Positions 4,423 to 36,060 of a stretch of DNA of 64,000 nt are shown piece by piece (within the stretch, counting starts at the first letter, position 1; every line of letters starts with the position of its first letter). Source of the stretch: Spirochaetota bacterium (GTDB taxonomy: Bacteria > Spirochaetota > Spirochaetia > Treponematales > UBA12059); contig JAKLDN010000008.1 of NCBI GenBank assembly GCA_022703505.1, positions 1-64,000 on the forward strand, given 5' to 3'. Made by a program: the position numbers and the translations under genes. The notes under the pieces are model-generated. The model ran no database searches. It was not told the origin of the DNA and saw only the letters and a program-made list of their open reading frames with translations.

Positions 4423-4569
4423 CTAGGAGCCTGTCAGACTTGTGGATATTAAGCGCCGATAGGCGCTTAATATCCCGATTATCCGGTTCCTTTGGAGTTT
4501 ACAAAGTAGAAAAATCGCATACCTGCGATTTTTCTACTATTAAGGTGGGCAAGCCCGACAAACTCCTAG
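4423..4569 (-). repeat. 147-bp CTAG-bounded palindromic element, copy 1
   Basis: Same element as at 35914-36060, in the opposite orientation and of identical length. Both ends are CTAG and the 20-bp ends form an imperfect terminal inverted repeat (CTAGGAGTTTGTCGGGCTTG against CTAGGAGCCTGTCAGACTTG). Inside are a 14-bp hairpin with loop gata (4444-4457/4462-4475) and a 15-bp hairpin with loop tacc (4505-4519/4524-4538), with two shorter hairpins between them. The minus-strand acyl-CoA synthetase gene ends in the TAG supplied by the element's outer CTAG (4566-4568). It contains no open reading frame, so it would be non-autonomous. Confidence 0.85.
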
Positions 4570-6326
4570 AACGAATCCTTGTACAGGAATCTCTTGATCT
4601 TCCGGGTGCTGGTCTTTTCGAACTCCGTATCCCGGATCCTGTGATACACCACCTTCATGTACGGCGGCAGGGACTTGTTCACCCTCTGGACCTCGGACCG
4701 CACCAGGGAGCCCACGAATTCCGGATCCCCTTCCCGGCCGGGGTGGGCGGCCCGGATCGCGTCGAAATTGGGATGGCAGAGGGCCACCACGTCTTCCCCG
4801 GAGTGGCCTTCCGACCGTCCCCGGCCCAGGACCAGGACCTCCGCGATCCAGGGGGAATCGGAAAACCTCTGCTCGATCTCCTCGGGATACACGTTCTTCC
4901 CGCCCTCGGTGACGATGAGGTCCTTGGATCGGCCGGTGATGAAGATGAAGCCCCGACCGTCGACTCGCCCGAGGTCCCCGGTGCGGAGCCATCCGTCCGG
5001 GGTCAGGGTCCCGGCGGTCGCCTCGGGGGCGTTCAAGTACCCCTTCATCAGGGAGGGGCTTTTGACCTGGATCTCCCCGATCCCGTCGGGCCCCGCGTCC
5101 GCGATCCGGACTTCCGTGTTCCAGACCGGAACCCCCACGGAGCGGTTGTCCTTGAACCGGGGCAGGTTCACGGAAATCAGGGGGCCGTTCTCGCTCATCC
5201 CGTAGCCCTGGACCATGCGGAGTCCCAAGGCGTCGAAGAAGTGGGCTGTGGCCGGCAGCAGGGGCCCACCGCCGGACACGCACAGGCGCAGGGAATCGAG
5301 GCCGGCCTTCCTTCGGAGGAAACCCAGGAGCGGCCTTCCGGCGTCCAGGCCGCAGTCCACGGTCAGGAAGCGGGCGGCTCCGATCAGGGCCCGGAGCATC
5401 CAGCCCGCCGCGGCCGGCAGCTTCCGGAGCTCCCCCTCGATGCCCGCCCGGATCTTGTCGAACAGGAGGGGTACCCCGATCAGGACCGTCACCCGGGATT
5501 CCTCGATGTGGCGCAGGACCACGGAGGGGACGATCTTCTCCACGAAGGTCACCGAGCAGCCCGCCTCCAGGGGGGCCAGGAAGGTGCAGGTGGTCGCGTA
5601 GGTATGGTGCAGGGGCAGGACCGAGAGGATATTGTCCCGCCCGTCCACCCGCAGGGCCCGGATCGAGGCCTCCATGTTCGCCAGGATCCCGGCGTGGGAG
5701 AGGACGATGCCCTTGGCCACCCCGGTGGTGCCGGAGGTGAAGATGATCGCCGCCGTGGCGTCGCCGGGGATGGAGTCCGGATCTGGGAGGTCCGCGGAGG
5801 GAGGCTCGGCCTGGATGCGCCGGTAGGAGCGTTCAAGGACACCGTCGGAGGCCGTCCCGTCGTCCTCCCGGTCCAGATCCAGGAGGACGAGGCCGGCGAT
5901 CCCGGAAATGGCGGCCGCGGCTCGGGCCTTGTCCCTCTGCCGGGCGGAGTACGCCAGGACCCGGGCGGAGGAGGCGGCCAGGATGTTGGCTGCCCCCCGC
6001 TCGTCCAAGGCCGTGTCCAGGGGAACCGCCACGAGCCCGGCGATGACCGCGGCGAAGTAGCAGACGCACCATTCGGGACGGTTCTCCGAGTAGATGGCCA
6101 CGGGATCCCCCGCGGAAAGGCCCGCGGCTACGAAGAATCGGGACAGGTTCCGGACCCGGGACTCCAGTTCCCGGAAGGAGAGGGTCTCGTAGCCCTCCTC
6201 CTTCCCCGCCGGACGCGCCCGGAAGGCCGTGGAGTCCCCGTAGGCCCGGACCGTACCCGCGAGCATCCGGGCGAAGTTCCCGTAGTGCCAGCCGGGATGC
6301 TCCGCGAAATAGGTTTTGTAATCCAT
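4566..6326 (-). CDS. fadD: long-chain acyl-CoA synthetase (AMP-forming)
   Basis: A 586-residue ANL-superfamily ligase, full length. It shows the AMP-binding signature IIFTSGTTGVAKGIVLSHAG near residue 190, the A5-type motif QGYGMSENGP, the hinge segment WLRTGDLGRVDGRGFIFITGR and the C-terminal catalytic lysine region. It activates a carboxylic acid to an acyl-adenylate and then to acyl-CoA. Similarity is greatest to long-chain fatty acid ligases; the chain length is not determined by what I can see. The start at 6326 has an AAGGA site. It follows pheT by 36 bp and is probably co-transcribed with it. Its stop codon TAG is part of the palindromic element at 4423-4569. Confidence 0.88.
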   Translation of the reverse strand: MDYKTYFAEHPGWHYGNFARMLAGTVRAYGDSTAFRARPAGKEEGYETLSFRELESRVRNLSRFFVAAGLSAGDPVAIYSENRPEWCVCYFAAVIAGLVAVPLDTALDERGAANILAASSARVLAYSARQRDKARAAAAISGIAGLVLLDLDREDDGTASDGVLERSYRRIQAEPPSADLPDPDSIPGDATAAIIFTSGTTGVAKGIVLSHAGILANMEASIRALRVDGRDNILSVLPLHHTYATTCTFLAPLEAGCSVTFVEKIVPSVVLRHIEESRVTVLIGVPLLFDKIRAGIEGELRKLPAAAGWMLRALIGAARFLTVDCGLDAGRPLLGFLRRKAGLDSLRLCVSGGGPLLPATAHFFDALGLRMVQGYGMSENGPLISVNLPRFKDNRSVGVPVWNTEVRIADAGPDGIGEIQVKSPSLMKGYLNAPEATAGTLTPDGWLRTGDLGRVDGRGFIFITGRSKDLIVTEGGKNVYPEEIEQRFSDSPWIAEVLVLGRGRSEGHSGEDVVALCHPNFDAIRAAHPGREGDPEFVGSLVRSEVQRVNKSLPPYMKVVYHRIRDTEFEKTSTRKIKRFLYKDSF

Positions 6327-6362
6327 GGATCGTTCCTTGGCCCCCGCTCGGGACCTCCGATG

Positions 6363-8072
6363 TTAGAGGTATGCCTCCAGGTCCAGCTCCCCCGCCACGC
6401 AGGGCACCGTGATTCCCCAGTTCTCCAGGACCCGGGGGTGGATCTCGCCGAAGACGCCGACCCCGGCCCCGTTCCGGAGGATCCGGGCCTGGCGCCCGGG
6501 TATGAACCGGGGATCCTCGCATTCCTCCACGGAATACTCGGCGCCCAGGTAGTACAGCAAGGCCGAGACCAGGCTGGCGGCCTCGTTGTAGTTCGCCTCC
6601 CCGTGGGAGGACAGGAAGCCCAGGTAGGTCCGGGTCACGGAGCCGTAGTTGGCCGACTCGTCCTTGAACGCCACCTTGCCGGCCTCCAGGATCCGGTGGG
6701 GATACACGGCCTTCCCGGACACGGATTCCGAGCCCAGGAGGCAGGGAAGGATCGAGGGCCGGACGTACTCGAAGTTCTCGGTCATGGGGTTGGCGATGCG
6801 CAGGACCGCGTCCCCGGGGATGTTCATCCGCTCCACGTAGTCCCGGCCGGAGCCCAGGTAGTTGTAGACCATCTCCTGGTAGCCCATGCCCACCAGGACG
6901 GCCTTGGCCTTGCGCGCCAGGGTTTCCACGGGGGTCAACCGTCCGATGGTGAAGTCCTTGGGCCGCTCGGGCTGGAAGCCGGGCATCCCGACGCCGATCA
7001 TGACGTCCTCGATGATGTCCACGGGATGGAGGAAGTCGTTCCGGTACTCCGGGGGGAAGGCGGTGACGAATTGGCCGTGGGTCTCCGAACGGACGCCCAT
7101 CCGGGCGAGGGCCTCGGCCACCGCCGCGGGGGAGAGGGACCGGCCCAGGAGGCGGCCCGCCCGCCCGGAATCCACGGACACGGGCTTCTGGAAGTAGTAC
7201 GGGAACACGACGGTCCGGCCGAACTCGGTGGGCTCGGGGAAGTCGATGGCCACGGGCTCGATGGTGTAGCCCGCGTCCGCGAAGTCGCAGGCCACGATGG
7301 AGGCGGACAGGGTGACCGAGGCCAGGTCCGTGCCCGTCAGCTCCACCAGGAGGTCCGTGTCCCCCACCTGGACGGCCCCGATGTCCGCGCTGTTGATGAT
7401 GGGGGGATAGGACAGGACCCCGCCCCGGGAATCCGTCAGGAGGGGGTGCAGCTTCTTCCCCCGGTTTATGAATCCGAACTCCTGGCCCTTCGGGTGCTTG
7501 TCCAGGATCTCCGAGAGGTTCAGGGCCTCCGTCATCTGCAGGGGCACGAAGCGCACCGAGGCCGGGGGCACCGCCTTGTAGTGGACGGGCCACTGGATCA
7601 GGGAGGTCCGGTAGATGCCCATGGAGACGGAGGCGCGCTTGCGGCCGAAGTTCCAGCAGAGTTTTTCCTGGGTCTGGATGGCGTCCCGGAGCATGGAATC
7701 CGTGATGGGCTTGCCGGAAATCACGAAGGCGGCCATGAAGGGCCGCACCCCCAGGACCGAGGGGTCCACGACCACCCGGCGGGTCGCCGGGCGGAGGTCC
7801 CCCTCCCGGGAGAAGAAGGGATAGGACGGGACGGCCCCTCCCGCGAGGGTCCGGAGCTGGCGGGCGATCCCGGCGGTGGACCAGAGGTCCGGCCGGTTCG
7901 TGTCGTTCAGCTCGATCTTGATGGTCCGTTCCTCGGGGGCCACTCCGGCGCCGGTTTCCCAGCCGTCCAGCTCTGCCTTCGCGCCCTGGAGGGCAAGCTC
8001 CAGCTCCTCGGCCGAGTATTTCCGGCCCGCCAGGTCGAAGAAAAGCTTTTCGTTGACGTCTATCTTGGGCAT
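6363..8072 (-). CDS. pheT: phenylalanyl-tRNA synthetase beta subunit, archaeal type
   Basis: A 569-residue protein of the short archaeal/eukaryotic PheT type, not the roughly 800-residue form usual in bacteria. It begins MPKIDVNEKLFFDLAGRKYS, carries the B1 and B3/B4 editing-type regions in the first half, then the catalytic-like core domain. It lacks the N-terminal tRNA-binding EMAP domain and the C-terminal anticodon-binding domain of the usual bacterial form. Together with PheS it forms the (alpha-beta)2 enzyme that charges tRNA-Phe in the cytoplasm. It starts 21 bp after pheS, with a GAGGA site. Archaeal-type PheRS is an established feature of spirochaetes and is thought to have been acquired by ancient gene transfer. 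Confidence 0.94.
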   Translation of the reverse strand: MPKIDVNEKLFFDLAGRKYSAEELELALQGAKAELDGWETGAGVAPEERTIKIELNDTNRPDLWSTAGIARQLRTLAGGAVPSYPFFSREGDLRPATRRVVVDPSVLGVRPFMAAFVISGKPITDSMLRDAIQTQEKLCWNFGRKRASVSMGIYRTSLIQWPVHYKAVPPASVRFVPLQMTEALNLSEILDKHPKGQEFGFINRGKKLHPLLTDSRGGVLSYPPIINSADIGAVQVGDTDLLVELTGTDLASVTLSASIVACDFADAGYTIEPVAIDFPEPTEFGRTVVFPYYFQKPVSVDSGRAGRLLGRSLSPAAVAEALARMGVRSETHGQFVTAFPPEYRNDFLHPVDIIEDVMIGVGMPGFQPERPKDFTIGRLTPVETLARKAKAVLVGMGYQEMVYNYLGSGRDYVERMNIPGDAVLRIANPMTENFEYVRPSILPCLLGSESVSGKAVYPHRILEAGKVAFKDESANYGSVTRTYLGFLSSHGEANYNEAASLVSALLYYLGAEYSVEECEDPRFIPGRQARILRNGAGVGVFGEIHPRVLENWGITVPCVAGELDLEAYL

Positions 8073-8093
8073 ATCGCTATCCTCTGTCTTCCG

Positions 8094-9674
8094 CTAGATC
8101 TTGGCCCGGCGCAGGCGGACGCTCTCGATGTCCGGGCTGAAGAGCTCCCGGAGGTCGTTCAGGCCCAGGGCCATCAGGGCCATCCGGTCGATCCCGATCC
8201 CCCAGGCCAGGACCGGCACGTGCACCCCCAGGGGCTCGGTCACCTCGGGTCGGAATATGCCGGACCCCCCCAGCTCGAACCAGCCCAGGACGGGATGCTT
8301 GATGTGGACCTCCACGGAGGGTTCCGTGAAGGGGAAGTAGCCGGGTACGTACTTGACTTCCTTGGCCCCCGCCACCTCCACGGCGAACATCTCCAGGAAC
8401 CCCAGGAGGGTGCGCAGGTTGACGTCGGGACCCAGGACGATGCCCTCGGTCTGGTAGAAGTCGGACAAGTGGGTGGCGTCCACCTTGTCGTAGCGGAAGC
8501 ACCGGGCCATGCCGAAGTAGCGGCCCGGAATCTCCGCCTTGGGAAGGGTCCGGGCGGAGAGCACCGTGCCCTGGCTGCGCAGGATCAGACGCCGGGTGAA
8601 GTCCCGGTCGAAGCCGTAGCCCCAGCCCCGGCTGCCGGTCTCGCCCCCGTTCTCGTGGGCCGCGGCCACGTTGGACAGGAAGGGCTCCTCGATCTCTCGG
8701 GCGTGGGTGGGCTCCGCCAGGTGGTAGACGTCGTGGATGTCCCGGGCGGAGTGGAACTGGGGCATGAACAGGGCGTCGGAGTTCCAGAACTCGGTCTCCA
8801 CCAGGGACCCGTCGAACTCCTGGAAGCCCAGGGACACGAGCTTGTCCTTGACCCCTTCCAGGAACTCCATGTAGGGATTCCGCCTTCCCGGCAGGACCCG
8901 GGCGGCGGGGCCGCGTACGTTGTAGGCCCGGAAGCGGACGTTCTTCCAGGATCCCGTCTCGAGCATCTCCGGGGTCAGGGCCCCCTCCTCGTCCCCCGTT
9001 ATCCCGGCCTCCGCGAGCTCCTTCCGGACCTCGCCGGCCGCCTCGGTCAGGCGGTAGGCCACGGACTCCCGGTCCGAGACCCGGAAGGCCGCGTCCCCGG
9101 CGCCCCGCTTGCGGGCGATGCCGGCGACCGCGGCGCGCTCCTCCGGGGAAAGGGAGGATTCCTCCAGGATCCCTCCCTCCGCGGCCCTGGCCCGCTCCAG
9201 GACCTCCCGCACCCGGGCGATCCGGGGCTTCCGGCCGGAGGCGTGGGCCGTTTCGAACCACGCCGGATCGGCCACGGCCCGCTTCTCGGCGTCCATGGAG
9301 AGGACCCCCTCCTTGGACAAGAGGCCGAAGGCGGAGCCGACGTCCTTCTGCTCGAGGCCCAGGGCGGCACAGATCTCCGGCAACCGGGCCGGTCCCTTGT
9401 CCGTCAGGTGGCGGAGTATGCGCTCCTCGGGGGTTCCCGCTGTGATCCACTCGAGCCCCAGGGGGGTCAGCTCGTAGACCGTCCGGACCGTCCGTCCGGC
9501 CTCCTCGGCCAGGCCCTTGGCGGAGAGCCAGCTGAAGGCCTGGTTGGCCTGGCCCTCCTTGTATCCGAGGTCGGCGGCCAAAAGCGCCGCGGAGAGCTCC
9601 CGGCCCGGGACATAGGCTCCCAGGACCTTGATTTCGAGGGGGTGCATGGTGCGCACCAGGGACTTGGTATCCAT
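8094..9674 (-). CDS. pheS: phenylalanyl-tRNA synthetase alpha subunit, archaeal type
   Basis: A 526-residue class II synthetase subunit. The N-terminal 180 or so residues hold winged-helix repeats typical of archaeal/eukaryotic PheS, for example the region around LAADLGYKEGQANQAFSWL. The catalytic domain has class II motif 2 (LILRSQGTVLSART), the phenylalanine-site region and motif 3 in HVPVLAWGIGIDRMALMALG. It makes the aminoacyl-adenylate and transfers phenylalanine to tRNA. The ATG at 9674 has GGAG upstream. Only 48 bp separate it from the fusion gene at 9723, so both are probably in one transcript. Confidence 0.95.
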   Translation of the reverse strand: MDTKSLVRTMHPLEIKVLGAYVPGRELSAALLAADLGYKEGQANQAFSWLSAKGLAEEAGRTVRTVYELTPLGLEWITAGTPEERILRHLTDKGPARLPEICAALGLEQKDVGSAFGLLSKEGVLSMDAEKRAVADPAWFETAHASGRKPRIARVREVLERARAAEGGILEESSLSPEERAAVAGIARKRGAGDAAFRVSDRESVAYRLTEAAGEVRKELAEAGITGDEEGALTPEMLETGSWKNVRFRAYNVRGPAARVLPGRRNPYMEFLEGVKDKLVSLGFQEFDGSLVETEFWNSDALFMPQFHSARDIHDVYHLAEPTHAREIEEPFLSNVAAAHENGGETGSRGWGYGFDRDFTRRLILRSQGTVLSARTLPKAEIPGRYFGMARCFRYDKVDATHLSDFYQTEGIVLGPDVNLRTLLGFLEMFAVEVAGAKEVKYVPGYFPFTEPSVEVHIKHPVLGWFELGGSGIFRPEVTEPLGVHVPVLAWGIGIDRMALMALGLNDLRELFSPDIESVRLRRAKI

Positions 9675-9722
9675 ACTGTGCTCCGATCGTCGGGCCCCGA
9701 GGGGCGTTCCGGTGGTGTACCG

Positions 9723-12700
9723 TTATTCGCAGGCTATATTGTCGGAATCGGGTCCGGCGGTCAATGCGGCCGCCGATTTTTTGACCGTCGCGCTGGATTT
9801 CCGCCCGTCCATGAGGATCTCGAGGGGTTCCTCGAAGCGCAGGTGGACGCAGTGGGGGGTCCGGCGCTCGACGGGCCGGGTTTGGAGGTATTCCCAGTTC
9901 ACGAAAGCGCTCCGGGAGTCCCAGGGCACCGTGAAATAGCCGATGTTCATGGAGGTCACGTTGTGGAAGAAGTGGGAGCCCAGGGAGCCCTCCACCCGGA
10001 AGCCCTCCAGGTCCGCCTCCACGATGACCCGGGCCCCGGAGATCTGCATGAAGCTGACGGGTATGCCCAGGCGCCGATCCCGGGTCCCCCAGCGGCCGGG
10101 TCCGATCAGGATGTACTTCCGTTTCTCTTCCTTGAGCCGGTCGTTTAGCTGGGCGATCTCCTGGGCGATCTCCTGGGTGGCCTCGGGATCGAAGGTCTCG
10201 GGAACCACGAACACGAGGTCCCGGATGGAGACGTCCCGGCCGTTTCCCATGGCCCGGTCCGTGGTCAGGACGCAGTCCTCCCGGTCCACCTCCCCGAGAT
10301 CCACGGCCACCTTGTTCGCGTTCTGGATCAGGGGCTTGATCTGCAGGAGGTAGAGGGCCGGGACGCCCGAGGTCTCCGCAAGGTTTACGGCGTACTCGAT
10401 CTCGATGGGGATTCCCATGCTGTTGGAGCCCACCTCCAGGACGGCCTCCACCGCCGGTGCGAAGGGAAGTGCCTCGTGCTGGAGGATGTTGGCGAAGTCC
10501 AGGATCCGGGGACCCCGGGCGGAAATCCCCGGAACCAATCGGCGGTCCGCCAGGTCGAAGGTTGAGGCCACCAGGGGGAACTCGGGGGTCCCCTCCACCT
10601 CCTCGATGTCCAGTTCCGCGAGGCCCGCGTCTTCCCCCGAGAGGAGCTCCGGGGAGGCCCGGTCCAGGTCGATGGCTATGAATCTGCGCTGGGAGTTGGC
10701 CACCCGGTGCTCCTGGGCCACGATCTCCAGCTTGGGGTACCCCGGGGCGAAGCGGAAGGTGTCCCCCCCCTCCACCACCCAGCGCCCCAGGCCCAGGGCG
10801 GCGTTGCACAGTCCGTCCTCGGGCTTGAGGTAGGCCACGGGATAGTAGTTGTGGGACTGGGCGGTGCCGGAGATCGGGGGATAGAACCAGCGGCCCCGGC
10901 GGGTCCCGACCACCTCCTGGATCACGATGGCCATGCGCTCCTCGTCGATCTTGTACCGGGCGGCCTCGAAATAGGACCGGGCCTTGGGGGAGAAGAGGGA
11001 GGCGTAGGTCAGCCGGATGGCGTCCTGTAGCTGGCGGAGCCGTTCCTCCGGGTCCGGGTGGGAGTTAGGGATCAGGTAGGTGTCGTAGATCCCCGAGAAG
11101 GGCACCATCAGCATGTCCTCGAAGAGGCCCGAGGACCGGACGGCCAGGGGCTTGTCCGTCACGGTCAGGAAGCGGCGCAGACCCGAGTTGACATCCGGGG
11201 AGAGGGGGGCCGCCACGAAGCGGCGGCGGATCTCCTCGTAGTCGCCTCCCCCGTAGGCGAAGGACCAGAGGTTGTTGGATTCCAGGAAGCGCTCGAACTC
11301 GTCGATCCCGATGAAGATGGTGAAGGGAACCCGGATCTCCAGCTTCCCTTCCCAGGCCGGGAAGGCCATGTTGTCGATCAGGCTCTTCAGGAACATGAGG
11401 CCCCGTCCCTTGCCGCCCACGGAACCCGCGGCCAGGCGGGCCATGACGTTGGAGTCCCCGCACAGGGACACGTCGAAGTGCGGGATGAGCCCCCGGTTCT
11501 TGGACCGGCGGACGTCGTCCAGGAGGCGCAGGAGGAAGTCCCGCATCTCCTGGGGATCTGAAAAATCGTCGATCCGGTAGTTCCTCAGGATCCGGGCGAA
11601 GCGGATCTCCCCCCGGGCGGTGAGCCAGGCCGAGAAGTGGTTGCGCTTTCCGTGCAATAGCAGGCTGTCCGAGGGCACTTGCAGCAGGCGTTCCTCGAAC
11701 TCCGCCATGTTCCGGGCCCGAGCCAGTTCCGTCCCGTCGGGCCCCCGGAAGATGAAGGGTCCGAAGCCCAGGTTCTCCCGGAAGAATCCGTCCAGCTCCC
11801 GGGCCAGGGAGTCGGATCCCTTGGATATGAAGCCCGCCCCGAGCCGGTGGGCTTCCGTGCGGGCCTCGGGCTCGCTGGACTGGATCAGGACGGGAAGGTC
11901 CGGGCTGCTCTCCCGGATGTGGTCCAGGAGCTTGAAGCCCGCCCGGGGATCCTCGGTCCCGCCGCAGGAATACCGGACGTCGGAGATGACGGTCAGGATG
12001 TAGGGCTCGTACCGCTCGAAGAGGGCCACCGCCTCCTCGTAGCTGGTGGCCAGGAGGATCTTGGGGCGGCCCCGCATGCGCAAGACCTTGTAGGTCTCCA
12101 CCAGCTGCTCTTCCTCGATCAGGGCCTGGATCTGGCGCATGACGACGGAATAGAGCACCGGCAGGTACCGGGAATAATAACGGACTGAGTCTTCGACCAG
12201 GAGGACGACCCGCACCAAGCCCGTGCGGGTGTCGGAGTCCACGTTCCGCAGGTCCTCCACGTACTTGATCATCCCCACGAAGAGCTTGGAATACCCGTTC
12301 CAGACGAAGACCCGGTCCGCGTACCGGAGCTCGGGACGCTTGGGGTCCAGGTCCGCCAGGCTGGAGTTGTTCATGGCCAGGAGGATGACGGGCACCTCCG
12401 GCCGGACGGCCTTCAGGTCCCGGGCCAGGGCCAGGGGACCGTCGAAATCCATCCCCGCCATCAGGATGACCAGGTCGAAGGGGCCGGAGCGGAAGGTCTC
12501 CTGGGCGGATTCGGGGCTGTAGGCGCAGGTGACCCGGGGGGCCGAGGTCAGGTTGAGGCGGTAGTACTCCCCGTAGATCTGCTCCGAGAGAGCCCCGTCG
12601 CTCTCCAGGATGAAGGAATCGTACAGGCTGGCCACCAGCAGGATCTCCCGGACCCGGTATCGCATGAGGTCGTGGAAGATGTTCCGGTCGCGGCGTTCCT

Positions 12701-12734
12701 GGTCGTAGGCCGCGACGAGCTCGTTGAAGTACAT
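9723..12734 (-). CDS. REC-like / PEP-synthase ATP-binding domain fusion
   Basis: A 1003-residue protein. Two receiver-like segments come first: about 60-160 (DLVILMAGMDFDGPLALARD) and about 185-325 (VRVVLLVEDSVRYYSRYLPV, later TVISDVRYSCGG). The C-terminal half resembles the ATP-grasp domain of PEP synthase and pyruvate phosphate dikinase, with GSVGGKGRGLMFLKSL, PLAVRSSGLFEDML and VIQEVVGTRRGRWFYPP. The mobile phosphohistidine domain (TGG-TSHAA motif) and the PEP-binding barrel are missing, so it cannot be a full PEP synthase. It is probably an ATP-dependent phosphotransferase or signalling enzyme; the substrate is unknown. The start at 12734 has no Shine-Dalgarno site but lies 8 nt below a -10 box, so the message is probably leaderless. 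Confidence 0.8.
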   Translation of the reverse strand: MYFNELVAAYDQERRDRNIFHDLMRYRVREILLVASLYDSFILESDGALSEQIYGEYYRLNLTSAPRVTCAYSPESAQETFRSGPFDLVILMAGMDFDGPLALARDLKAVRPEVPVILLAMNNSSLADLDPKRPELRYADRVFVWNGYSKLFVGMIKYVEDLRNVDSDTRTGLVRVVLLVEDSVRYYSRYLPVLYSVVMRQIQALIEEEQLVETYKVLRMRGRPKILLATSYEEAVALFERYEPYILTVISDVRYSCGGTEDPRAGFKLLDHIRESSPDLPVLIQSSEPEARTEAHRLGAGFISKGSDSLARELDGFFRENLGFGPFIFRGPDGTELARARNMAEFEERLLQVPSDSLLLHGKRNHFSAWLTARGEIRFARILRNYRIDDFSDPQEMRDFLLRLLDDVRRSKNRGLIPHFDVSLCGDSNVMARLAAGSVGGKGRGLMFLKSLIDNMAFPAWEGKLEIRVPFTIFIGIDEFERFLESNNLWSFAYGGGDYEEIRRRFVAAPLSPDVNSGLRRFLTVTDKPLAVRSSGLFEDMLMVPFSGIYDTYLIPNSHPDPEERLRQLQDAIRLTYASLFSPKARSYFEAARYKIDEERMAIVIQEVVGTRRGRWFYPPISGTAQSHNYYPVAYLKPEDGLCNAALGLGRWVVEGGDTFRFAPGYPKLEIVAQEHRVANSQRRFIAIDLDRASPELLSGEDAGLAELDIEEVEGTPEFPLVASTFDLADRRLVPGISARGPRILDFANILQHEALPFAPAVEAVLEVGSNSMGIPIEIEYAVNLAETSGVPALYLLQIKPLIQNANKVAVDLGEVDREDCVLTTDRAMGNGRDVSIRDLVFVVPETFDPEATQEIAQEIAQLNDRLKEEKRKYILIGPGRWGTRDRRLGIPVSFMQISGARVIVEADLEGFRVEGSLGSHFFHNVTSMNIGYFTVPWDSRSAFVNWEYLQTRPVERRTPHCVHLRFEEPLEILMDGRKSSATVKKSAAALTAGPDSDNIACE

Positions 12735-12742
12735 GTGTAGAT

Positions 12743-12771
12743 AGTATGTCCGGCGGCGATCGGTTCTTCAA
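12743..12771 (-). promoter_or_regulatory. promoter of the REC/PEP-synthase-like gene
   Basis: Minus strand: TTGAAG (12766-12771), 17-bp spacer, CATACT (12743-12748). The -10 ends 8 nt before the ATG at 12734, which implies a leaderless mRNA. It is back to back with the promoter at 12781-12809. Confidence 0.6.
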
Positions 12772-12780
12772 GGGGAAACC

Positions 12781-12809
12781 CTGACAGCGCGGGCGGTTTA
12801 TCGTATACT
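12781..12809 (+). promoter_or_regulatory. promoter of the PAS-GGDEF-EAL gene
   Basis: Plus strand: CTGACA (12781-12786), 17-bp spacer, TATACT (12804-12809). The start site would be near 12816, giving a leader of about 75 nt. It is divergent from the promoter at 12743-12771, so the two may be co-regulated. Confidence 0.65.
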
Positions 12810-12890
12810 GGTAGCAGCGGCATCCCGGAATCCCAGCGGGATGGCGCGCAACCCGGCATCATACGCAAATCTCGGTCCACGGAGCCCCCC

Positions 12891-14561: not shown

Positions 14562-14590
14562 AAAAGGGGCGGTCCCTTTCGGGACCGCCC
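14562..14590 (-). terminator. intrinsic terminator, strongest toward gdhA
   Basis: A 10-bp perfect stem GGGCGGTCCC / GGGACCGCCC with a 4-nt loop (14567-14576/14581-14590). Read on the minus strand it is followed by TTTTTT, a classic rho-independent terminator for gdhA transcripts. On the plus strand the trailing sequence is only GTACGTTTATT, so it may also serve the EAL gene, less well. The gdhA message would thus have a 3' untranslated region of about 325 nt that includes the tandem hairpin array. Confidence 0.85.
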
Positions 14591-14650
14591 GTACGTTTAT
14601 TCATACTTCATATCATCAGCCTGTCCGGCGCAGCGAGCTTCCTCGTCCAT

Positions 14651-14855: not shown

Positions 14856-14859
14856 GCGG

Positions 14860-14899: not shown

Positions 14900-14915
14900 G
14901 ACCCTGCAGGCCGGT

Positions 14916-16262: not shown

Positions 16263-16328
16263 GATGCCCTCCTTGTTGGACATACGCGTGTTTGGTGATT
16301 GAAGGGCGCTGCGGCCCTTCCTGGGTTT

Positions 16329-26454: not shown

Positions 26455-26460
26455 GGAGGC

Positions 26461-26490
26461 AGTGTAAAGCAGGAGTCGGGGATCGGGCAA
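26461..26490 (-). promoter_or_regulatory. lptD promoter
   Basis: Minus strand: TTGCCC (26485-26490), 18-bp spacer, TACACT (26461-26466). The -10 ends 6 nt before the GTG start of lptD, again suggesting a leaderless transcript. Confidence 0.45.
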
Positions 26491-26502
26491 CAGCGGTGGT
26501 CC

Positions 26503-26572
26503 GTGGTCAGTGGACGGAAGAATCCGGTGTATCCGCTCGCTTTCCGTCCACTGTCCGCCGTTTACTGCTTCA
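26503..26572 (-). repeat. GTGGACAGTGGACGG-type palindromic repeat at the uvrA 3' end
   Basis: An inverted repeat pairs the left arm near 26507-26519 with the right arm near 26540-26553 (CAGTGGACGGAAG against CTTTCCGTCCACTG). The same motif, ACGGYGGACAGYGGACGGAA, recurs at 38661-38738. On the minus strand the repeat contributes the last residue and stop of uvrA (CAG TAA). Confidence 0.7.
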
Positions 26573-29384: not shown

Positions 29385-29393
29385 GATGGCTAG

Positions 29394-29422
29394 AGCATAC
29401 CCAAGCCCGGGCGGCCGGGCAA
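29394..29422 (-). promoter_or_regulatory. uvrA promoter
   Basis: Minus strand: TTGCCC (29417-29422), 17-bp spacer, TATGCT (29394-29399). The -10 ends 9 nt before the uvrA ATG, so the 5' untranslated region would be only a few bases. Confidence 0.6.
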
Positions 29423-29470
29423 GGGGTGCTTAATATTTGTATAGCGGATTGTAGCGGCCGAGCTGTCCGG

Positions 29471-30508
29471 TCAGTCCCGACGGACGTCCCAGATCCGTAC
29501 GGAGCAGTCCCCCCCGGCCGTCGCGTACTGGCCGGAGCCCGAAGCCAGGCGCGAACCGTCGGGCGACCAGGCCAGGGACCATACGGGGGATCGATGGGCG
29601 GGAATCGTCGCCAGGATCCGGCCGTCGGAACCGTCCCGCACCGCGATGTCCCGGCCGTTCCCCGCGGTCGCCAGATACCTCCCGTCCGGGGACCACGCGA
29701 CCGCCCGGAGCCATCCGCCGGCTTGGGAGCTGGCTGCTATTAGGGCGCCCGTATCCGCGTTCCAGATCCGCACCCGGCCGTCCTGCTGGCAGACGGCGAT
29801 CCGGGTCCCGTCCGGGGACCAGGCCAGGCCGTTCACGTCCTTCCGGGCCTCCCCGGGCGCCCTCAGTTCCCGTTCTATCCGACCGGTCTGGGGATCCAGG
29901 ATCCGCACCACGAAATCCATGCCTCCGGCCGCTATCCGACGGCCGTCGGGAGACCAGGCCAGGGCTATGATCTGGGTGGACAGCCCCTCGGACCCGTCCG
30001 AGACGGGAAAGGTCGTTCCCTGGCCCGTATCCGCGTCGAGGACGAGGACGGATCCCGAGGACAGGCCGGCCGCCACGCGCGGTCCCCCGGGCGACCAGGA
30101 GACACAGTAGGCTCCGGACGCCTCCAGCCGGACTTCCCGTTCCAGGGTCCCGTCCCGGCGGAAGATGCGCAGGACGGAATCCACGGACGCCGCGGCGAAG
30201 CGGCGGGAATCCGGCGCCCAGGACACTCCCCAGACCGCGGCCGGGATCGAGACGACGGCGGTCGGGATCCCTCCGGAGGGATCCCAGATCCGGCAGGTCC
30301 TGTCCCCTCCCGCGGAGGCCAGGAGCCCGCCGTCCGGGGACCAGGCCAGGGAGTTCACGGCTCCCGTATGGCCGGGGAGTTCCGACCCCGGGGAGAATCC
30401 GGCCCGGGCTTCCTGCCCGAAGGCGGCGGACGGCCCGAATAGGCACAACAGCAGGACGACCCGGGCTGCGACGCGAATCCTGCGTTTTCCCTCGATCTTC
30501 GCTGACAT
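29471..30508 (-). CDS. secreted WD40 beta-propeller protein
   Basis: A 345-residue protein with a signal peptide (ARVVLLLCLFGPSAAFG, cut near residue 31). Almost all the rest is seven WD40 repeats, each carrying the SPDGxxLAxxxxD core, such as LAWSPDGGLLASAGGDRTC and LAWSPDGSRLASGSGQYA. It should fold as a single seven-bladed propeller outside the cytoplasm and act as a binding scaffold; its partner is unknown. The start at 30508 has an AAGGAAG site. It lies 86 bp upstream of uvrA on the same strand but uvrA has its own promoter. It is divergent from the coiled-coil gene at 30541, whose -35 box overlaps this start codon. Confidence 0.85.
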   Translation of the reverse strand: MSAKIEGKRRIRVAARVVLLLCLFGPSAAFGQEARAGFSPGSELPGHTGAVNSLAWSPDGGLLASAGGDRTCRIWDPSGGIPTAVVSIPAAVWGVSWAPDSRRFAAASVDSVLRIFRRDGTLEREVRLEASGAYCVSWSPGGPRVAAGLSSGSVLVLDADTGQGTTFPVSDGSEGLSTQIIALAWSPDGRRIAAGGMDFVVRILDPQTGRIERELRAPGEARKDVNGLAWSPDGTRIAVCQQDGRVRIWNADTGALIAASSQAGGWLRAVAWSPDGRYLATAGNGRDIAVRDGSDGRILATIPAHRSPVWSLAWSPDGSRLASGSGQYATAGGDCSVRIWDVRRD

Positions 30509-30530
30509 TTCCCGCTTCCTTCGCTATAGT
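30502..30530 (+). promoter_or_regulatory. promoter of the coiled-coil/zinc protein gene
   Basis: Plus strand: CTGACA (30502-30507), 17-bp spacer, TATAGT (30525-30530). The -10 ends 10 nt before the ATG at 30541 and no Shine-Dalgarno site exists. The -35 hexamer overlaps the first bases of the divergent WD40 gene. Confidence 0.6.
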
Positions 30531-30540
30531 TTACCACGAA

Positions 30541-31116
30541 ATGTCCAAGAATGACGAAGCCGATCACGCCCTCCACTCCCTGCGCCGGGAGCAGTTGGTG
30601 GAGGAGGTCCGCCGCCTGCGCGCCCTCCTGGAAGACACTCGGGACCTTCCGGACATGGCCAGCGACGCCCTCCGCAGGGCCAACGCACGGACCGAGGAAT
30701 ACCGGACGGCCTTCGTGGTGGCCACGGAGGAGTTGGCACGCGCTCGTTCGGCCCTCCAGGAAACCTGGCGGGTACTGAAGGCCCAGGAGTTCTCCGCCCC
30801 CGCCTACAGCCTGTACGCGGAGACCGGAGGCGAGGCTCTCGGCGCGACCGCCGGTTCTCCCTCCCTACCGGAGGCCCGGGAGCGCGGGGCCTGCCCGGCC
30901 TGCGGGGGCTTCGGCTCCCATTCCCCCTCCTGCTCCCTGGCGCGGGCCCTGGAGCCTTCCCGGGACCCCCGGCCCCCGCGAGGCGAACTGGAACGGGCCG
31001 TGGACCGGGCCTGGGAGGAGCGGACCGGGGAAAAGGACGGGGTCCGCGCCCGGCTCGTCTTCCTGGACGTGCTCTTCGAGGAGCTGGCCAAGCGAGGCCT
31101 GGTCCGGGAAGACTGA
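30541..31116 (+). CDS. coiled-coil protein with a Cys/His zinc motif
   Basis: A 191-residue soluble protein that I do not recognise. Residues 5-85 are strongly helical with heptad-like spacing, a probable coiled coil. Near residue 118 there is CPACGGFGSHSPSC, a likely zinc-binding knuckle. The C-terminal 45 residues (VRARLVFLDVLFEELAKRGL) look like another amphipathic helix. No catalytic motif is seen. The gene stands alone, has no Shine-Dalgarno site and is probably leaderless. Its stop codon abuts the most diverged copy of the ychF 3' end. Confidence 0.7.
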   Translation: MSKNDEADHALHSLRREQLVEEVRRLRALLEDTRDLPDMASDALRRANARTEEYRTAFVVATEELARARSALQETWRVLKAQEFSAPAYSLYAETGGEALGATAGSPSLPEARERGACPACGGFGSHSPSCSLARALEPSRDPRPPRGELERAVDRAWEERTGEKDGVRARLVFLDVLFEELAKRGLVRED

Positions 31117-31118
31117 AC

Positions 31119-31217
31119 ATTGAATTTGAAGAACATCACACCCCCGTCTCGTCCGGCGCGGGGCGCCGGACGGCGACGAACGCGTTCGCGTTCGTCGATC
31201 CCACCGGAACGTCGTCC
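31119..31217 (-). repeat. third ychF 3'-end copy plus palindromes (direct repeat copy 1)
   Basis: About 95 bp nearly identical to 31302-31400, at an offset of exactly 183 bp. On the minus strand it starts with a diverged copy of the ychF C-terminal codons (DGGVMFFKFNV, no stop). The downstream part holds two perfect hairpins: a 10-bp stem around the GGCGCC core near 31153-31173 and an 11-bp stem CGACGAACGCG / CGCGTTCGTCG at about 31174-31197. Confidence 0.85.
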
Positions 31218-31218
31218 G

Positions 31219-31285
31219 CGCCGGAGCGCCGGGCGCTCCGGCGGCGCGGAAGGCCTCTAAGCCTTCCGCGATCCACCGAATCGCG
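31219..31285. repeat. cluster of GC-rich hairpins
   Basis: Three perfect inverted repeats in 67 bp: an 11-bp stem (31219-31229/31233-31243), a 10-bp stem with loop ctctaa (31245-31254/31261-31270) and a 6-bp stem CGCGAT/ATCGCG (31267-31272/31280-31285). The last two overlap, so they may be alternative folds. No T-run follows. They separate the two 95-bp direct repeats. Confidence 0.75.
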
Positions 31286-31295
31286 AGTCTTTTAG

Positions 31296-31400
31296 CTAGA
31301 TATTAAACTTGAAGAACATCACATCCCCGTCTCGTCCGGCGCGGGGCGCCGGACGGCGACGAACGCGTTCGCGTTCGTCGATATTCCTGAAACGTCGTCC
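31296..31400 (-). repeat. second ychF 3'-end copy plus palindromes (direct repeat copy 2)
   Basis: On the minus strand 31296-31328 reads DGDVMFFKFNI then TAG, identical in protein to the real YchF C-terminus but with three synonymous codon changes. The TAG lies in a CTAG (31296-31299). The rest repeats the two hairpins found at 31119-31217. The stretch 31392-31408 is an inverted copy of gene sequence just inside ychF (CGTCGTCCAGGACGGG). Confidence 0.85.
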
Positions 31401-31414
31401 AGGACGGGCGGGTA

Positions 31415-32512
31415 TCAAATATTGAATTTGAAGAACATCACATCCCCGTCCTGGACGACGTACTCCTTGCCTTCCAGGCGGAGTTTGCCGGCGGACTTCA
31501 CGGCGTGCTCACTGCCGTATTCCATGAGGTCGTCGTAGCGGTAGACCTCGGCCTTGATGAAACCCTTCTCGAAGTCCGTGTGGATGGTCCCCGCCGCGGC
31601 GGGAGCCTTGTCCCCGACATGGATGGTCCAGGCCCGGCACTCGTCCTCCCCGGCGGTGAAGAAGGTGCGCAGGCCCAGGAGGTGGTAGACGGCGTGGATC
31701 AGGGCCGACAGGCCGGATTCCGCCAGGCCCAGCTCCGCCAGGAATTCCGCCTTCTCCTCCTCGCTCTCCAGGTCCGCCAGCTCGGACTCGAACTTCCCGC
31801 AGATGACCACGCACTCGGCGCCCTCGGCCTCGGCGATCCTCCGCACCGCCTCGACGTGGGGGCTGCCCGTGCAGATCCCCTCCTCGTCGGCGTTGCAGAC
31901 GTAGATCTCCTTCTTCATCGTGATGAGGAAGGAGCGCTTGACCGCCTCGGCCTCCTCGGCATCCAGGGAGACGGACCGGGCCGGACGGCCCTCCTGCAGG
32001 GCGGGGCGGATCTTGGCGTAGGCGGCCAGTTCCCGTTCGGCATCCTTCTTCTTGGCGGGATCCTTCAGCTCCTTCTGGAGTTTTTCCGCGCGCTTGTCCA
32101 CGGTCTCCAGGTCCGCCAGGGCCAGCTCCAGGTGGAGCATCTCGATGTCGTCCCCGGGGCTCACCCGGTTGGAGACGTGGGGCACCTCGGGGTCCTCGAA
32201 GCACCGGACCACGTGGGCCAGGACCGCGGAGTCCCGGATGTGGGCCAGGAACTGGTTGGCTCCCTCCTTCTTGGAGGCCGCGGAGGCCAGCCCCGCGATG
32301 TCCACGAACTCCACCGTGGCGGGGACCTTCTTCCGGGGCTTGAACATCTCCGTGAGCCGGTCCAGCCGTGGGTCCGGCACGGCGATGATGCCCAGGTTGG
32401 GATTCTTGGCGGAGGAATAGTTGGAGATCTCCGCCTTGACCCGGGTCAGGGCGGTGAATATCGTGGTCTTGCCGACCGTGGGCAGTCCGATGATTCCGCA
32501 GTTCAGGGGCAT
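31415..32512 (-). CDS. ychF: redox-regulated ATPase YchF
   Basis: A 365-residue Obg-family P-loop protein, the usual length. The G1 motif is GLPTVGKT, G3 is DIAGLASAASKKEGANQFL, and G4 is NADE rather than NKxD, which is the YchF signature for ATP over GTP. A coiled coil and a C-terminal TGS domain follow (about residues 280-363, ending EYVVQDGDVMFFKFNI). YchF binds ribosomes and is linked to stress responses. The start at 32512 has a GAGG site; an upstream ATG (32548) adds 12 residues unlike the family. The stop is TGA, and two further copies of the last codons lie downstream. Confidence 0.96.
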   Translation of the reverse strand: MPLNCGIIGLPTVGKTTIFTALTRVKAEISNYSSAKNPNLGIIAVPDPRLDRLTEMFKPRKKVPATVEFVDIAGLASAASKKEGANQFLAHIRDSAVLAHVVRCFEDPEVPHVSNRVSPGDDIEMLHLELALADLETVDKRAEKLQKELKDPAKKKDAERELAAYAKIRPALQEGRPARSVSLDAEEAEAVKRSFLITMKKEIYVCNADEEGICTGSPHVEAVRRIAEAEGAECVVICGKFESELADLESEEEKAEFLAELGLAESGLSALIHAVYHLLGLRTFFTAGEDECRAWTIHVGDKAPAAAGTIHTDFEKGFIKAEVYRYDDLMEYGSEHAVKSAGKLRLEGKEYVVQDGDVMFFKFNI

Positions 32513-32744
32513 ATGTACCTCGCTCGGGAGGGGCACCGGACCGCTCACGGTCCTTCGACGGCCCTTTCCTACACCCTAAAGAAAGCGCCTCCCCGCGTCA
32601 ATGCCGGATCCCGCCGCAGAAAACCGCGCTTGCCCGGCTCCGGACCCGCAACCTTTACGAAGCGGCTCCGTATCGGTTAGCATGATCGGAACTGCCGGAC
32701 CGGGCCGGTCGCCCGGAACGGCGAAACCACCAAGGAGACGATCC

Positions 32745-33980
32745 ATGGCTTCCTTCGAATCGCTCTATTCCGAGAACGCCCTGAACATGAAGAAATCCGT
32801 CATCCGGGAGCTCCTCAAGCTGACCCAGAAGCCGGACATCATCTCGTTCGCGGGCGGACTCCCCGCGCCGGAGACCTTCCCGGTGGAGGACCTCCGGGCC
32901 GCCGCCGACGTCGTGTTCGTCAAGCACGCGACCAAGGCCCTCCAGTACGGGACCACCGAGGGCGATCCGGACCTGAAGGATGAGCTGATCAAATTCGAGG
33001 CCCGCCAGGGGGTGAAGATCGGCCAGGACCACCTCCTGGTCGTATCCGCCAGCCAGCAGGCCCTGGACATCGTGGCCAAGGTCTTCATCGATCCGGGGGA
33101 CTACATCATCGGCGGCCACCCCACCTACCTGGGGACCATCCAGGCCATCCAGTCCTACCGGGGCCGGGTCCTGGGCATCCCCTTCAGCAAGGCGGACGAC
33201 GGGTTCGACATGGACGAACTGGAGAGGCGCTACGCCTCCGCCCTGCGGGACGGCAAGCGGATCAAGTTCATCTACGTCATACCGGACTTCCAGAACCCCA
33301 CGGGGATCTGCTGGAGCGTGGAGAAGCGGAAGGCCCTCCTGGAATTCTCCTACCGGACCGGCCTTCCCCTGGTGGAGGATTCCCCCTACCGGGAGATCCG
33401 GTTCCTGGGCAAGACCCTGCCCTCGATCTTCCAGCTGGACCAGGAGGGGGAGAACCGGGGGAACGTCCTCAATTTCAAGACCTTCTCCAAGATCCTCGCC
33501 CCGGGCACCCGGATGGGCTGGGTCATGGCGAACCCGGACATCATCTCCAAGTTCGTGGTGGCCAAGCAGGCCATGGACCTGTGCACGAACGTCTTCGCCC
33601 AGAAGTGGATCGCCGAGTACCTCAAGACCGGCAAGATCTACTCCGTCATCGAGCACACCTGCGGCATCTACCGGGACAAGCGCAATTACATGACCGAACT
33701 GCTGGAACAGCACATGCCCAAGCGGCCGGATATCTCCTGGACCAAACCCGAGGGGGGCCTGTTCCTCTGGATCCGCCTCCCCGAGGGGATCGACACGGAC
33801 AAGATGCTGCTCAAGGCCATCGAGCGCAAGGTCGCGTACGTGGGAGGGTCGTCCTTCTACTTCGACGAGCCCGAGCACAACACCATGCGCATCAACTTCT
33901 CCTACAGCTCCCTGGAGCAGATCGAGGAGGGAGTCAAGCGCCTGGCTCGGGTGGTGGCCGAGGAGCTCGAGGGCCGCTGA
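32745..33980 (+). CDS. class I PLP-dependent aminotransferase
   Basis: A 411-residue fold-type I aminotransferase. It has DIISFAGGLPAPETFP near the start, the substrate/PLP segments YGTTEGDPDL and PDFQNPTG, and the PLP lysine in FSKILAPGTRMGW. This pattern is shared by LysN/2-aminoadipate-type and MocR-related aminotransferases without the DNA-binding domain. Aromatic, 2-aminoadipate or branched-chain amino acids are possible substrates. The ATG at 32745 has AAGGAG 9 nt upstream. It is a single gene divergent from ychF. Its nearness to the branched-chain acid operon at 36-40.7 kb makes a role in amino acid fermentation possible, but this is inference. Confidence 0.9.
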   Translation: MASFESLYSENALNMKKSVIRELLKLTQKPDIISFAGGLPAPETFPVEDLRAAADVVFVKHATKALQYGTTEGDPDLKDELIKFEARQGVKIGQDHLLVVSASQQALDIVAKVFIDPGDYIIGGHPTYLGTIQAIQSYRGRVLGIPFSKADDGFDMDELERRYASALRDGKRIKFIYVIPDFQNPTGICWSVEKRKALLEFSYRTGLPLVEDSPYREIRFLGKTLPSIFQLDQEGENRGNVLNFKTFSKILAPGTRMGWVMANPDIISKFVVAKQAMDLCTNVFAQKWIAEYLKTGKIYSVIEHTCGIYRDKRNYMTELLEQHMPKRPDISWTKPEGGLFLWIRLPEGIDTDKMLLKAIERKVAYVGGSSFYFDEPEHNTMRINFSYSSLEQIEEGVKRLARVVAEELEGR

Positions 33981-34031
33981 TCCCGACCCCCGGGATTCCG
34001 AGGGACCGGAATCCCGGCTTCGCGCTTTCAT

Positions 34032-34060
34032 TTGACGGACCCGGACTTCGGCCCTAGAAT
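34032..34060 (+). promoter_or_regulatory. promoter of the CZB chemoreceptor gene
   Basis: Plus strand: TTGACG (34032-34037), 17-bp spacer, TAGAAT (34055-34060). It ends only 5 nt before the ATG at 34066; no Shine-Dalgarno site is present, so the message is probably leaderless. Confidence 0.6.
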
Positions 34061-34065
34061 GGCCC

Positions 34066-35802
34066 ATGCTGTCCAACCTTGTCAGGCAAACCGCCGCGGG
34101 TGCCCTCCTGGGCGCCGCCGTCCAGTCCTCCCTGGTCCTCCTCCTGGCACCCGGCACTCCCCTTCCCGCCCTGGCCGCTTCCGCCGCCGCGGGATTTTCC
34201 GTCTTCCTCCTGGCGGGCACGCTGGTCCTTCGCTTCGGGGTCGAAAAGCCCTCCGCCCGGATCGCGGATCGGGTCCGCACCCTGGCGGAAGGGGACCTCA
34301 TAGGACGCGTCGGCGAGGTGCGAGGGCATGAGGCCCTCCGCACCGCGGCGGTCGAACTGGACGAAACCCTGGCGGGCAACTACCAGGTCATCCTCCTGGG
34401 ACTTAAAGAGATCACCCGCCGCAACCTGGAGGCCGCCCGGGCCTTCCGTGCGGACCTGGATTCCGCCGTCCGGTCCATAGCGGCCGCCCGGGATCCCGTG
34501 TCCTCCCTGGGCGAAAAGGTCGGACGCCTTTCCGCTAGACTGTCCTCGGCCTCCTCGGAATCCAAGACCGTCCGGGCCTCCGTGACCCGGCTGGCCGAGC
34601 GGGTCGCGGACCAGGCCGGGGCGGTCGAGCAGTCCAGCGCCGCGATCGAGGAAACCGGGAGCCAGATACGGTCCATCGCCCAGACGGCCCGGAAGGAGCG
34701 CCAGGCCGCCCTGGACCTCGCCGAGGCCGTGGAACGGGGCGGCCGGGGGATCGGGACGGTGGCGGAGGTCATCGGGGGGCTTTCGACGGGTATCGCCGAG
34801 GTGGCCGAGCTGTCCCGGATGATCAACCAGGTGGCCGCCCGGACGAACCTCCTGGCCATGAACGCGGCCATCGAGGCGGCCCACGCCGGGGAGTACGGCC
34901 GGGGGTTCGCGGTGGTGGCCGGGGAGATCCGGAACCTCGCGGAATCCGCGGGGGAGGGGGCCAAGAAGATCGCCGGAGCCCTGGCGGGCTTTTCCGAACG
35001 CATCCGGTCCGCCTCGGACTCCAACGAATCCCTCAAGTCCCTGTTCGAGGAACTCAAGCGGGACTCGGAGAGCTTCCTGGCGGCCTTCAAGGAGATATCC
35101 GGAGGCACCGAGGAGATCGCCGCCGGGACGGCCCAGATGGTCGACGCCGTGCAGGAACTGCGGGTCATCTCCACCGAGAACCGGGACGCGTTCGGGGAGA
35201 TCGGCCGCTCCGTGGAATCCCTGGACCGCATCTTCGAGGAGGCCGCGGGGTTCTTCGAGGCCCTGGGCCGGGACGAGCGGACCATGTCCGCGGCCTTCGG
35301 GGAGGCCGCCGGCCGGGTGGAAGCCCTGGGCCTGCGGGGCGGGGAAAGCGAACGGAGCTTCTCGGAGATCGCGTCGGAGCTCCGGTACTTCTCCCTGGAC
35401 AAGGGCGAGGAGAACGCCGCCTACCGTCCGGAGATCAAGCGCATCATCTTCGACCACAAGCGCCGGGTCGTCTCGGGCCGGTTGTACCTGGACGGCCGCG
35501 TGGACGCGCGGAACCTTCCCGCCCGGAGCCGCACCGAGGACTGCCTCCTGGACCCCCTGCTCAAGAGGATTTCCCCCACCCTTCCCGAACGGGCGGACAT
35601 GCTGGGCAGACTGGACCGCGCCCACCGGGCCTTCCACGAGGCGTACAACGCCTTCCAGGAGGAATGCCTGCGCCCCGGCCCGGACGAAGCCGGACGGCGG
35701 GCCCGGGCCTCCGCCCTCTTCGAGGAGGCGGAACTGCGCTGGAAGGCCCTCTTCGACTACCGGGAGGAGCTCAACCTGGTACTGGAGAAGGCGGGCGGCT
35801 GA
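34066..35802 (+). CDS. methyl-accepting chemotaxis protein with C-terminal CZB-type domain
   Basis: A 578-residue chemoreceptor. Two hydrophobic segments (about 10-30 and 33-57) make an N-terminal hairpin with almost no periplasmic loop, so no external ligand domain is present. The signalling tip is clear: [20 protein letters not shown], then [16 protein letters not shown]. Unusually, about 115 residues follow the signalling helices. They contain IFDHKRRVV, then [12 protein letters not shown] and [11 protein letters not shown], which fits the His/Cys/HxxxH pattern of chemoreceptor zinc-binding (CZB) domains. It probably senses an internal cue such as zinc or hypochlorite-type oxidation, as known CZB receptors do. 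The gene is probably leaderless and ends in a terminator. Confidence 0.87.
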
Positions 35803-35848
35803 GAGCCGGTCCCCCGCCGCGTCGGACGGATTCCCGGCGCAAAAATAA

Positions 35849-35884
35849 GAGGCGCCCGCCGATACGGTTGGGCGCCTCTCTTTC
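35849..35884 (+). terminator. intrinsic terminator after the CZB chemoreceptor
   Basis: A 9-bp stem GAGGCGCCC / GGGCGCCTC (35849-35857/35870-35878) with a 12-nt loop, followed by tcttt. It lies 46 bp after the chemoreceptor stop. Confidence 0.75.
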
Positions 35885-35913
35885 GGAGACACGGCCGGAA
35901 GACAGATCCGGCG

Positions 35914-36060
35914 CTAGGAGTTTGTCGGGCTTGCCCATCAAAACCAAAGAAAAATCGCATACCTGCGATTTTTCTACCTCGCAAACTCCCGAGGAGCCCG
36001 TTAATCGGGGCTTTATACGCCGATAGGCGTATAAAGCCCACAAGTCCGACGGACTCCTAG
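35914..36060 (+). repeat. 147-bp CTAG-bounded palindromic element, copy 2
   Basis: Full-length partner of 4423-4569, same length, opposite orientation. CTAG at both ends; terminal repeats CTAGGAGTTTGTCGGGCTTG and CTAGGAGTCCGTCGGACTTG (right end, complement). The hairpin with loop gata (36008-36021/36026-36039) differs from copy 1 at five stem positions, all compensated in the other arm. The hairpin with loop tacc (35948-35959/35964-35975) is conserved. Short inner hairpins CTCC-cga-GGAG and CCCG-ttaat-CGGG lie between. The korC stop codon TAG is the right-end CTAG (36057-36059). Confidence 0.88.

Follow-up and report, generated by a model that had tools for sequence, protein, structure and literature searches.

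What kind of element is a 147-bp repeat that occurs twice in one stretch of spirochete DNA, and how do its stems come to differ between the copies and still pair? The window, that is, the whole stretch of DNA analyzed here, comprises 64,000 nucleotides of a Spirochaetota bacterium (positions 1 to 64,000 of contig JAKLDN010000008.1, assembly GCA_022703505.1) and has a 16S rRNA gene at 77-1618 on the minus strand. An earlier note had described two copies of equal length in opposite orientation. Both are present, copy 1 at 4423-4569 on the minus strand (T-end at 4569, C-end at 4423) and copy 2 at 35914-36060 on the plus strand (T-end at 35914, C-end at 36060), each 147 bp long, with 113 of 147 positions identical. 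The note was right to see here a family of structured repeats whose stems are compensated and which shows signs of mobility; its origin and the cause of the compensation appear to differ from those proposed.

Read from the T-end to the C-end, the element consists of a T-end hairpin (e.g., GGGCTTGCCC), a hairpin H1, the core CTTGCAAACTCCAAAGGAGCC, a hairpin H2, and the C-end; CTAGGAGTTTG marks the T-end and CTAGGAGCCTG the C-end. The terminal repeat, CTAGGAGNYTGTCGGRCTT, is about 20 bp long and lies in copy 1 at 4550-4569 (T-end, minus strand) and 4423-4442 (C-end, plus strand) and in copy 2 at 35914-35933 (T-end, plus strand) and 36041-36060 (C-end, minus strand). H1 has a 15-bp stem in copy 1 (4505-4538, minus strand) and a 12-bp stem in copy 2 (35948-35975, plus strand), H2 has a 14-bp stem in both (4444-4475, minus strand; 36008-36039, plus strand), and the short core hairpin is formed by CTCC/GGAG. 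Most of the fold drawn earlier was recovered, namely, the 20-bp outer stem, H1, the core hairpin, and H2, but its fourth inner hairpin is weak (2 to 4 bp, in some folds). Two copies from a Treponema metagenome-assembled genome (MAG), L176 and L195, have an extra small hairpin, CGAACC..GGTTCG, in the H1 region.

Searches with BLAST and with a covariance model derived from 23 copies (20 belonging to the window's own genome) found 20 full copies of 145 to 148 bp in that genome (3.66 Mb, 14 contigs), so that the window copies are not a chance pair, the outcome that the earlier note had left open. Beyond these there are one 158-bp copy with an insert and several truncated or interrupted ones. The repeat is short and gene-less (without a transposase gene) and has many dispersed copies in one genome, as a miniature inverted-repeat transposable element (MITE) would, and it is best read as one. 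At 45 and 51% G+C, the copies in the window lie below the window as a whole (66.6%). One insertion (L019) is common to the own genome and the genome G001 (L040), with matching flanks. Some copies are themselves broken by other palindromic inserts, as in L041/L047 (G002:C67, inside H1) and L021 (G000:C11:211387-211632).

The own genome also contains five 23-bp pieces of the form CTAGGAG-n9-CTCCTAG, one of which, CTAGGAGTTTGTCGGGCTCCTAG, lies in the window at 52810-52832 (no strand assigned). Four of the five consist of the element's left 18 bases fused to its last 5; the fusion falls at short direct repeats (GGCT or ACT) present in both ends, as would be expected from deletion across a palindrome. 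The fifth, at C7:372338-372360, has a different interior and directly adjoins a full copy.

Where does the element insert? CTAG stands at both of its ends, and at 9 of 11 sites with an ortholog a single CTAG is found in at least one of two species of the same genus (L001, L006, L009, L010, L011, L012, L013, L018, and L022). For this comparison, the flanks of twelve own insertion sites were joined by one CTAG and searched in the genus, and the ortholog was fetched for 11. Two orthologs lack CTAG at the junction (L004, with CTAT, and L007), the second species lacks it at some sites (L066, with GTAG; L068; L069, with TTAG; and L072), and L058 has a CTAG displaced from the junction by a few bases. 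Element motifs were found in 0 of 20 ortholog loci. Insertion is thus accompanied by a short target duplication, seen as CTAG, and a duplication of TA inside CTAG would look identical. No stem-loop target of the IS1272 type, lost on insertion, was found at these sites; the junction-spanning alignments run through plain CTAG, and in L001, L009/L071, and L010 the spacer beside the junction is unaligned and could hide more than that.

The occupied CTAGs share a second property. At 16 of 22 MITE sites (20 full and 2 half copies), a Pfam-domain frame ends with its TAG stop inside the CTAG. Only 6 of the 28 unoccupied CTAGs of the window hold such a stop (Fisher p 0.0005), the control being a single window in which all open frames of at least 90 codons were scanned and several CTAGs belong to the rRNA gene or its vicinity. 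Frames were chosen by Pfam support, and a codon-usage gene finder was dropped since it picked some antisense open reading frames (ORFs). In the window, the terminal CTAG at the T-end of copy 1 holds the stop of a gene for an AMP-binding enzyme (4566-6326, minus strand), the terminal CTAG at the C-end of copy 2 that of a gene with a POR domain (pyruvate ferredoxin/flavodoxin oxidoreductase; 36057-36701, minus strand), and the CTAG of the 23-bp remnant that of the ribonuclease HII gene (52829-53434, minus strand). At L008, Pfam-domain frames end in the CTAG on both strands. The window itself has two CTAGs, at 59340-59343 and 62332-62335, each of which provides the TAG stop for two Pfam-supported frames that converge on it, one per strand. 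Since TAG is a stop codon, an insertion there leaves the gene intact, and this is why most of the copies examined stand at gene 3' ends; CTAG stop codons offer the MITE family a safe place to insert. The excess of stop codons fits an insertion preference and a purging of insertions within genes equally well.

Which enzyme could have moved the element? The terminal repeat CTAGGAGNYTGTCGGRCTT of the MITE is also found on IS1182-family (DDE) elements from the same order, and the end variants GTCGGACTT, GTTGCGCTT, and GTGGGACTT (GTCGG, GTTGCGC, and GTGGG) are seen on MITEs as well as on IS1182 elements. The genome G358 has a 1,648-bp element (L085:387-2034, GTCGG ends) with terminal inverted repeats at both ends and an IS1182-type transposase (NF033551, E-value of 2.2e-60; Pfam DDE_Tnp_1_6), which scores 204.9 bits, below the curated NF033551 cutoff of 270. 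This transposase is split into two frames, a 105-codon N-terminal part and the rest, as either a disabling mutation or a programmed frameshift might produce. A 1,575-bp element with both ends, of the GACCATCT variant, is present in G286; IS1182 elements with a long transposase ORF and both ends were recovered only twice. A search with the G358 protein gave matches in 22 of 390 genomes, and its 28 further loci form 24 distinct regions (grouped by hand). The end score reaches at least 14/19 in 12 of these regions and at least 16/19 in 8, many contigs being cut, whereas 60 shuffles of the end patterns gave means of 1.9 and 0.17 regions at the two thresholds and maxima of 9 and 7. In one Treponema MAG with many MITE copies, the start of an IS1182 gene adjoins a MITE, with the CTAG and the GTGGGACTTTGG end in common. 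Because its ends of about 20 bp are IS1182-family ends, we infer that a DDE transposase of that family moved the MITE in trans.

No IS1182 transposase was found in the own genome, G001, or G002 with NF033551, the G358 protein, or PF13751, and in the own genome no own ends (at most 3 mismatches) face each other at a distance of 1 to 3 kb. The MITE copies of the window's genome therefore look orphaned. In G050 no IS1182 transposase was found by the NF033551 search, and this genome is also absent among the matches to the G358 protein. The NF033551 search detected an IS1182 transposase in only 12 of 27 genomes, and the own genome and its relatives had none; this counts against the proposed mobilizer, and mobilization at the present time is no more than a possibility. 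An autonomous partner in the same genome, which a MITE does not strictly require, was found in none of G000, G001, and G002. The interiors of two representative MITEs gave no match better than an E-value of 0.05 against 13 IS1182 loci. The one-contig genome G031, which carries the MITE, has twelve weak matches to the IS1182 model (50 to 52 bits) with a 499-amino-acid open frame; no matching ends were found near the three places that were fetched (L116, L121, and L128).

The family extends well beyond the window's genome, and relatives of the MITE are present in several Treponema-like genera. A sequence search of 58 genomes, including the own one, gave matches in 5. The terminal repeat CTAGGAGNYTGTCGGRCTNG occurs with at most 1 mismatch in 38 of 390 genomes, in 25 of 91 genera of the order, compared with 6 genomes, once each, for the same pattern read backwards. 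The covariance model, whose filters lose weak matches, hit 11 of 392 genomes of the phylum, all in the same order. A core-pattern scan of named genomes found at least 113 stretches; all 80 matches listed are titled Treponema or Spirochaetaceae MAGs, and Kf353_bin150, with dozens of stretches, is among them. Over the compared locus, a G002 contig is identical to a contig of Treponema sp. isolate AS27yjCOA_177. Many contigs of one Treponema MAG end in copies of the MITE. A second short element of about 200 to 240 bp has the same CTAGGAGNCTGTCGGACT ends and another interior (L088, L090, L091, L094, and L095).

Why, then, do the stems stay paired? In an alignment of 23 copies (22 distinct), 95.5% of the cells pair, and 10 of 52 pairs are changed on both sides; with the pairing partners slid by 1 to 3 columns, 3 to 6 such pairs were counted. 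Within the genus, the pairs changed on both sides belong to H2 (9 of 14) and H1 (1 of 14); neither the core hairpin, with 4 pairs, nor the outer stem, with 20, has any. The covariation survived a check against 500 shuffles, none of which reached the observed value on any of five measures, although the tool cautions that relatedness alone can give this result, even where there is no structure. Across the family, the stems of H1 and H2 are quite different yet mostly well paired (68 of 69 distinct elements parsed), and despite these differences the same hairpin layout recurs across several genera. In the window pair, the hairpin with the GATA loop differs at stem positions 3, 4, 5, 9, and 10, and all five changes are compensated, just as the earlier note had observed. 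Its loop had been taken as unchanged; GATA is indeed read on the plus strand at both places, but as one copy is inverted relative to the other, the loop of H2 in element orientation is TATC in copy 1 and GATA in copy 2 and has itself been inverted.

Two observations bear on the molecule in which the compensation arose. Mismatches in 83 unique stems comprise 10 G-T and 15 A-C pairs (p 0.42; symmetric scoring, all 69 elements), and neither strand is therefore favored. A G-T excess (37 against 15 A-C) seen in another count came from a stem finder that rewarded wobbles and was gone on the symmetric recount. In addition, where different loops top identical 9-bp apical stems (72 pairs), 4 pairs are reverse complements and none is reversed or complemented; the window pair and L026 versus L008 are further loop inversions. 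The absence of strand bias and the inverted loops point to palindrome maintenance at the DNA level, such as template switching, which yields compensated stems without selection for the fold and would account for double changes (e.g., A-T to T-A) that pass through no wobble intermediate. The covariation, real as it is, fits DNA-level template switching and is no proof of selection for a folded RNA. The view that it is strong evidence for a folded form being kept is weakened accordingly.

Could the fold itself nevertheless be selected, with hairpins that act in transposition, e.g., as extruded cruciforms, and are kept through mobility? We regard this as conceivable but on balance doubtful. Template switching alone leaves the persistence of the hairpin layout over several genera with quite different stems unexplained, which gives room for selection on the fold, and IS1272, a member of the IS1182 family, has been reported to insert at stem-loops and replace them (PMC5678879). 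However, the empty sites described above align through plain CTAG, template switching produces the same pattern of stem changes, and the outer stem has no pair changed on both sides within the genus. Truncated copies are about equally well paired: in H2, 78 of 84 pairs are formed in six truncated copies and 267 of 278 in full ones (92 of 98 in the truncated set if L020, a full copy with an insert, is counted there), a result that selection and homogenization would both allow. A stronger version, which we consider unlikely, makes the hairpin interior a functional transposition module whose folded DNA (a cruciform or replication hairpins) captures IS1182 transposases of many lineages. If this were true, only the layout and the ends would be conserved while template switching kept changing the stems, and the MITE would be defined by its shape and not by its sequence.

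It is less probable still, and in our judgment very unlikely, that a transcribed RNA structure is selected, for instance one that acts at gene 3' ends as a portable bidirectional terminator. Many copies have an H1 of the A-tract/GC/T-tract form, a gene stop abuts the element at the 16 of 22 sites mentioned above, and insertions of IS1182 have been reported to be overrepresented between convergent genes (PMC9208149). Against a selected RNA stand the wobble pairs, which show no strand bias, and the AT-rich H1 of other genomes. In a scan for terminators, the surroundings of copy 1 yielded no site and those of copy 2 a single one (H1), while shuffles yielded 0.9, and the only Rfam match of the window at the gathering score is the 16S rRNA, with none for the MITE.

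The likeness to REP sequences noted earlier suggested a REP/BIME-like element moved as single-stranded DNA by a Y1 (HUH) enzyme of the TnpA_REP/RAYT or IS200/IS605 type, with CTAG as the recognition tetranucleotide. The own genome does have five Y1_Tnp genes (L031-L035), a tetranucleotide lies near a hairpin in GGGCTTGCCC, and single-strand insertion beside CTAG could likewise leave CTAG at the empty site; but CTAGGAG is found within 1.5 kb of 0 of the 5 Y1 genes, the terminal inverted repeats are symmetric, and the same ends flank IS1182 transposases, so that a Y1 enzyme can hardly be the mobilizer. IS5 and IS630 prefer CTAG or TA targets, and CTAG ends alone would fit a MITE of such a DDE family, but the matching ends are found on transposases of the IS1182 family, the DDE family that our searches covered, which makes this origin very improbable.

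We conclude that the repeat is, with high probability, a MITE with IS1182-family ends that inserts at CTAG and has a conserved hairpin interior. The family, its ends, target, and empty sites, the stop-codon context, the covariation, and the loop inversion are direct observations, whereas movement in trans and template switching of the stems are the proposed mechanisms behind them. According to this model, an IS1182-family DDE transposase supplied in trans would have moved the MITE, which enters at CTAG and leaves CTAG at either end. Its interior does not resemble that of a deleted IS and is a conserved set of hairpins, H1, the CTCC/GGAG core hairpin, and H2. Template switching during replication would copy one arm onto the other, so that stems are rewritten between subfamilies yet remain paired, and loops flip. 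The element would then be a natural example of covariation that textbooks take as evidence for a folded molecule but that mutation probably brought about, and covariation-based claims of structure on mobile palindromes become testable.

How does this family compare with known systems? REP/BIME elements of the RAYT (TnpA_REP) systems resemble the MITE in being short and hairpin-rich with a tetranucleotide at their ends and differ from it in depending on a Y1 transposase and having no DDE-type ends. Template switching between inverted repeats has been reported to homogenize arms and invert spacers (PMC8604942) and has been proposed to make multibase compensatory changes (PMC8794818); these cases were described in yeast coding DNA and in RNA genes, whereas ours are bacterial MITEs. 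Insertion sequences of the IS1182 family share the transposase family and a length of about 1.6 kb with the transposase-bearing elements found here, and ISPse1 (1653 bp, inverted repeats 16/16) also has a 4-bp duplication (PMC3281130). Unlike the MITE, ISPse1 and IS1272 carry a transposase (PMC3281130, PMC5678879). For IS1272, replacement of stem-loop targets with no duplication has been reported (PMC5678879), in contrast to the plain CTAG at empty sites of the MITE. Closest in kind are two MITEs of Methanosarcina acetivorans attributed to ISMac2, an IS1182-family element, which are 160 and 169 bp long and present in 14 and 7 copies, have inverted repeats that measure 26 and 25 bp, and show a 4-bp duplication in one case out of the two (PMC3852290). 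Like the spirochete MITE they are attributed to IS1182, and unlike it they are archaeal; the passages of that paper compared here mention no CTAG target, hairpin interior, or stop-codon context, and neither "hairpin" nor "secondary structure" appears in their wording (PMC3852290). Since MITEs derived from IS1182 have been published, among them one that has a 4-bp duplication (PMC3852290), the kind is already known. The present family was not found described in the titles and abstract beginnings of the open-license PMC literature. It adds an IS1182-type MITE family of several Treponema-like genera, in which, as far as our searches show, the spirochete family itself, its CTAG/stop-codon habit, its hairpin interior, and its loop inversions are new.
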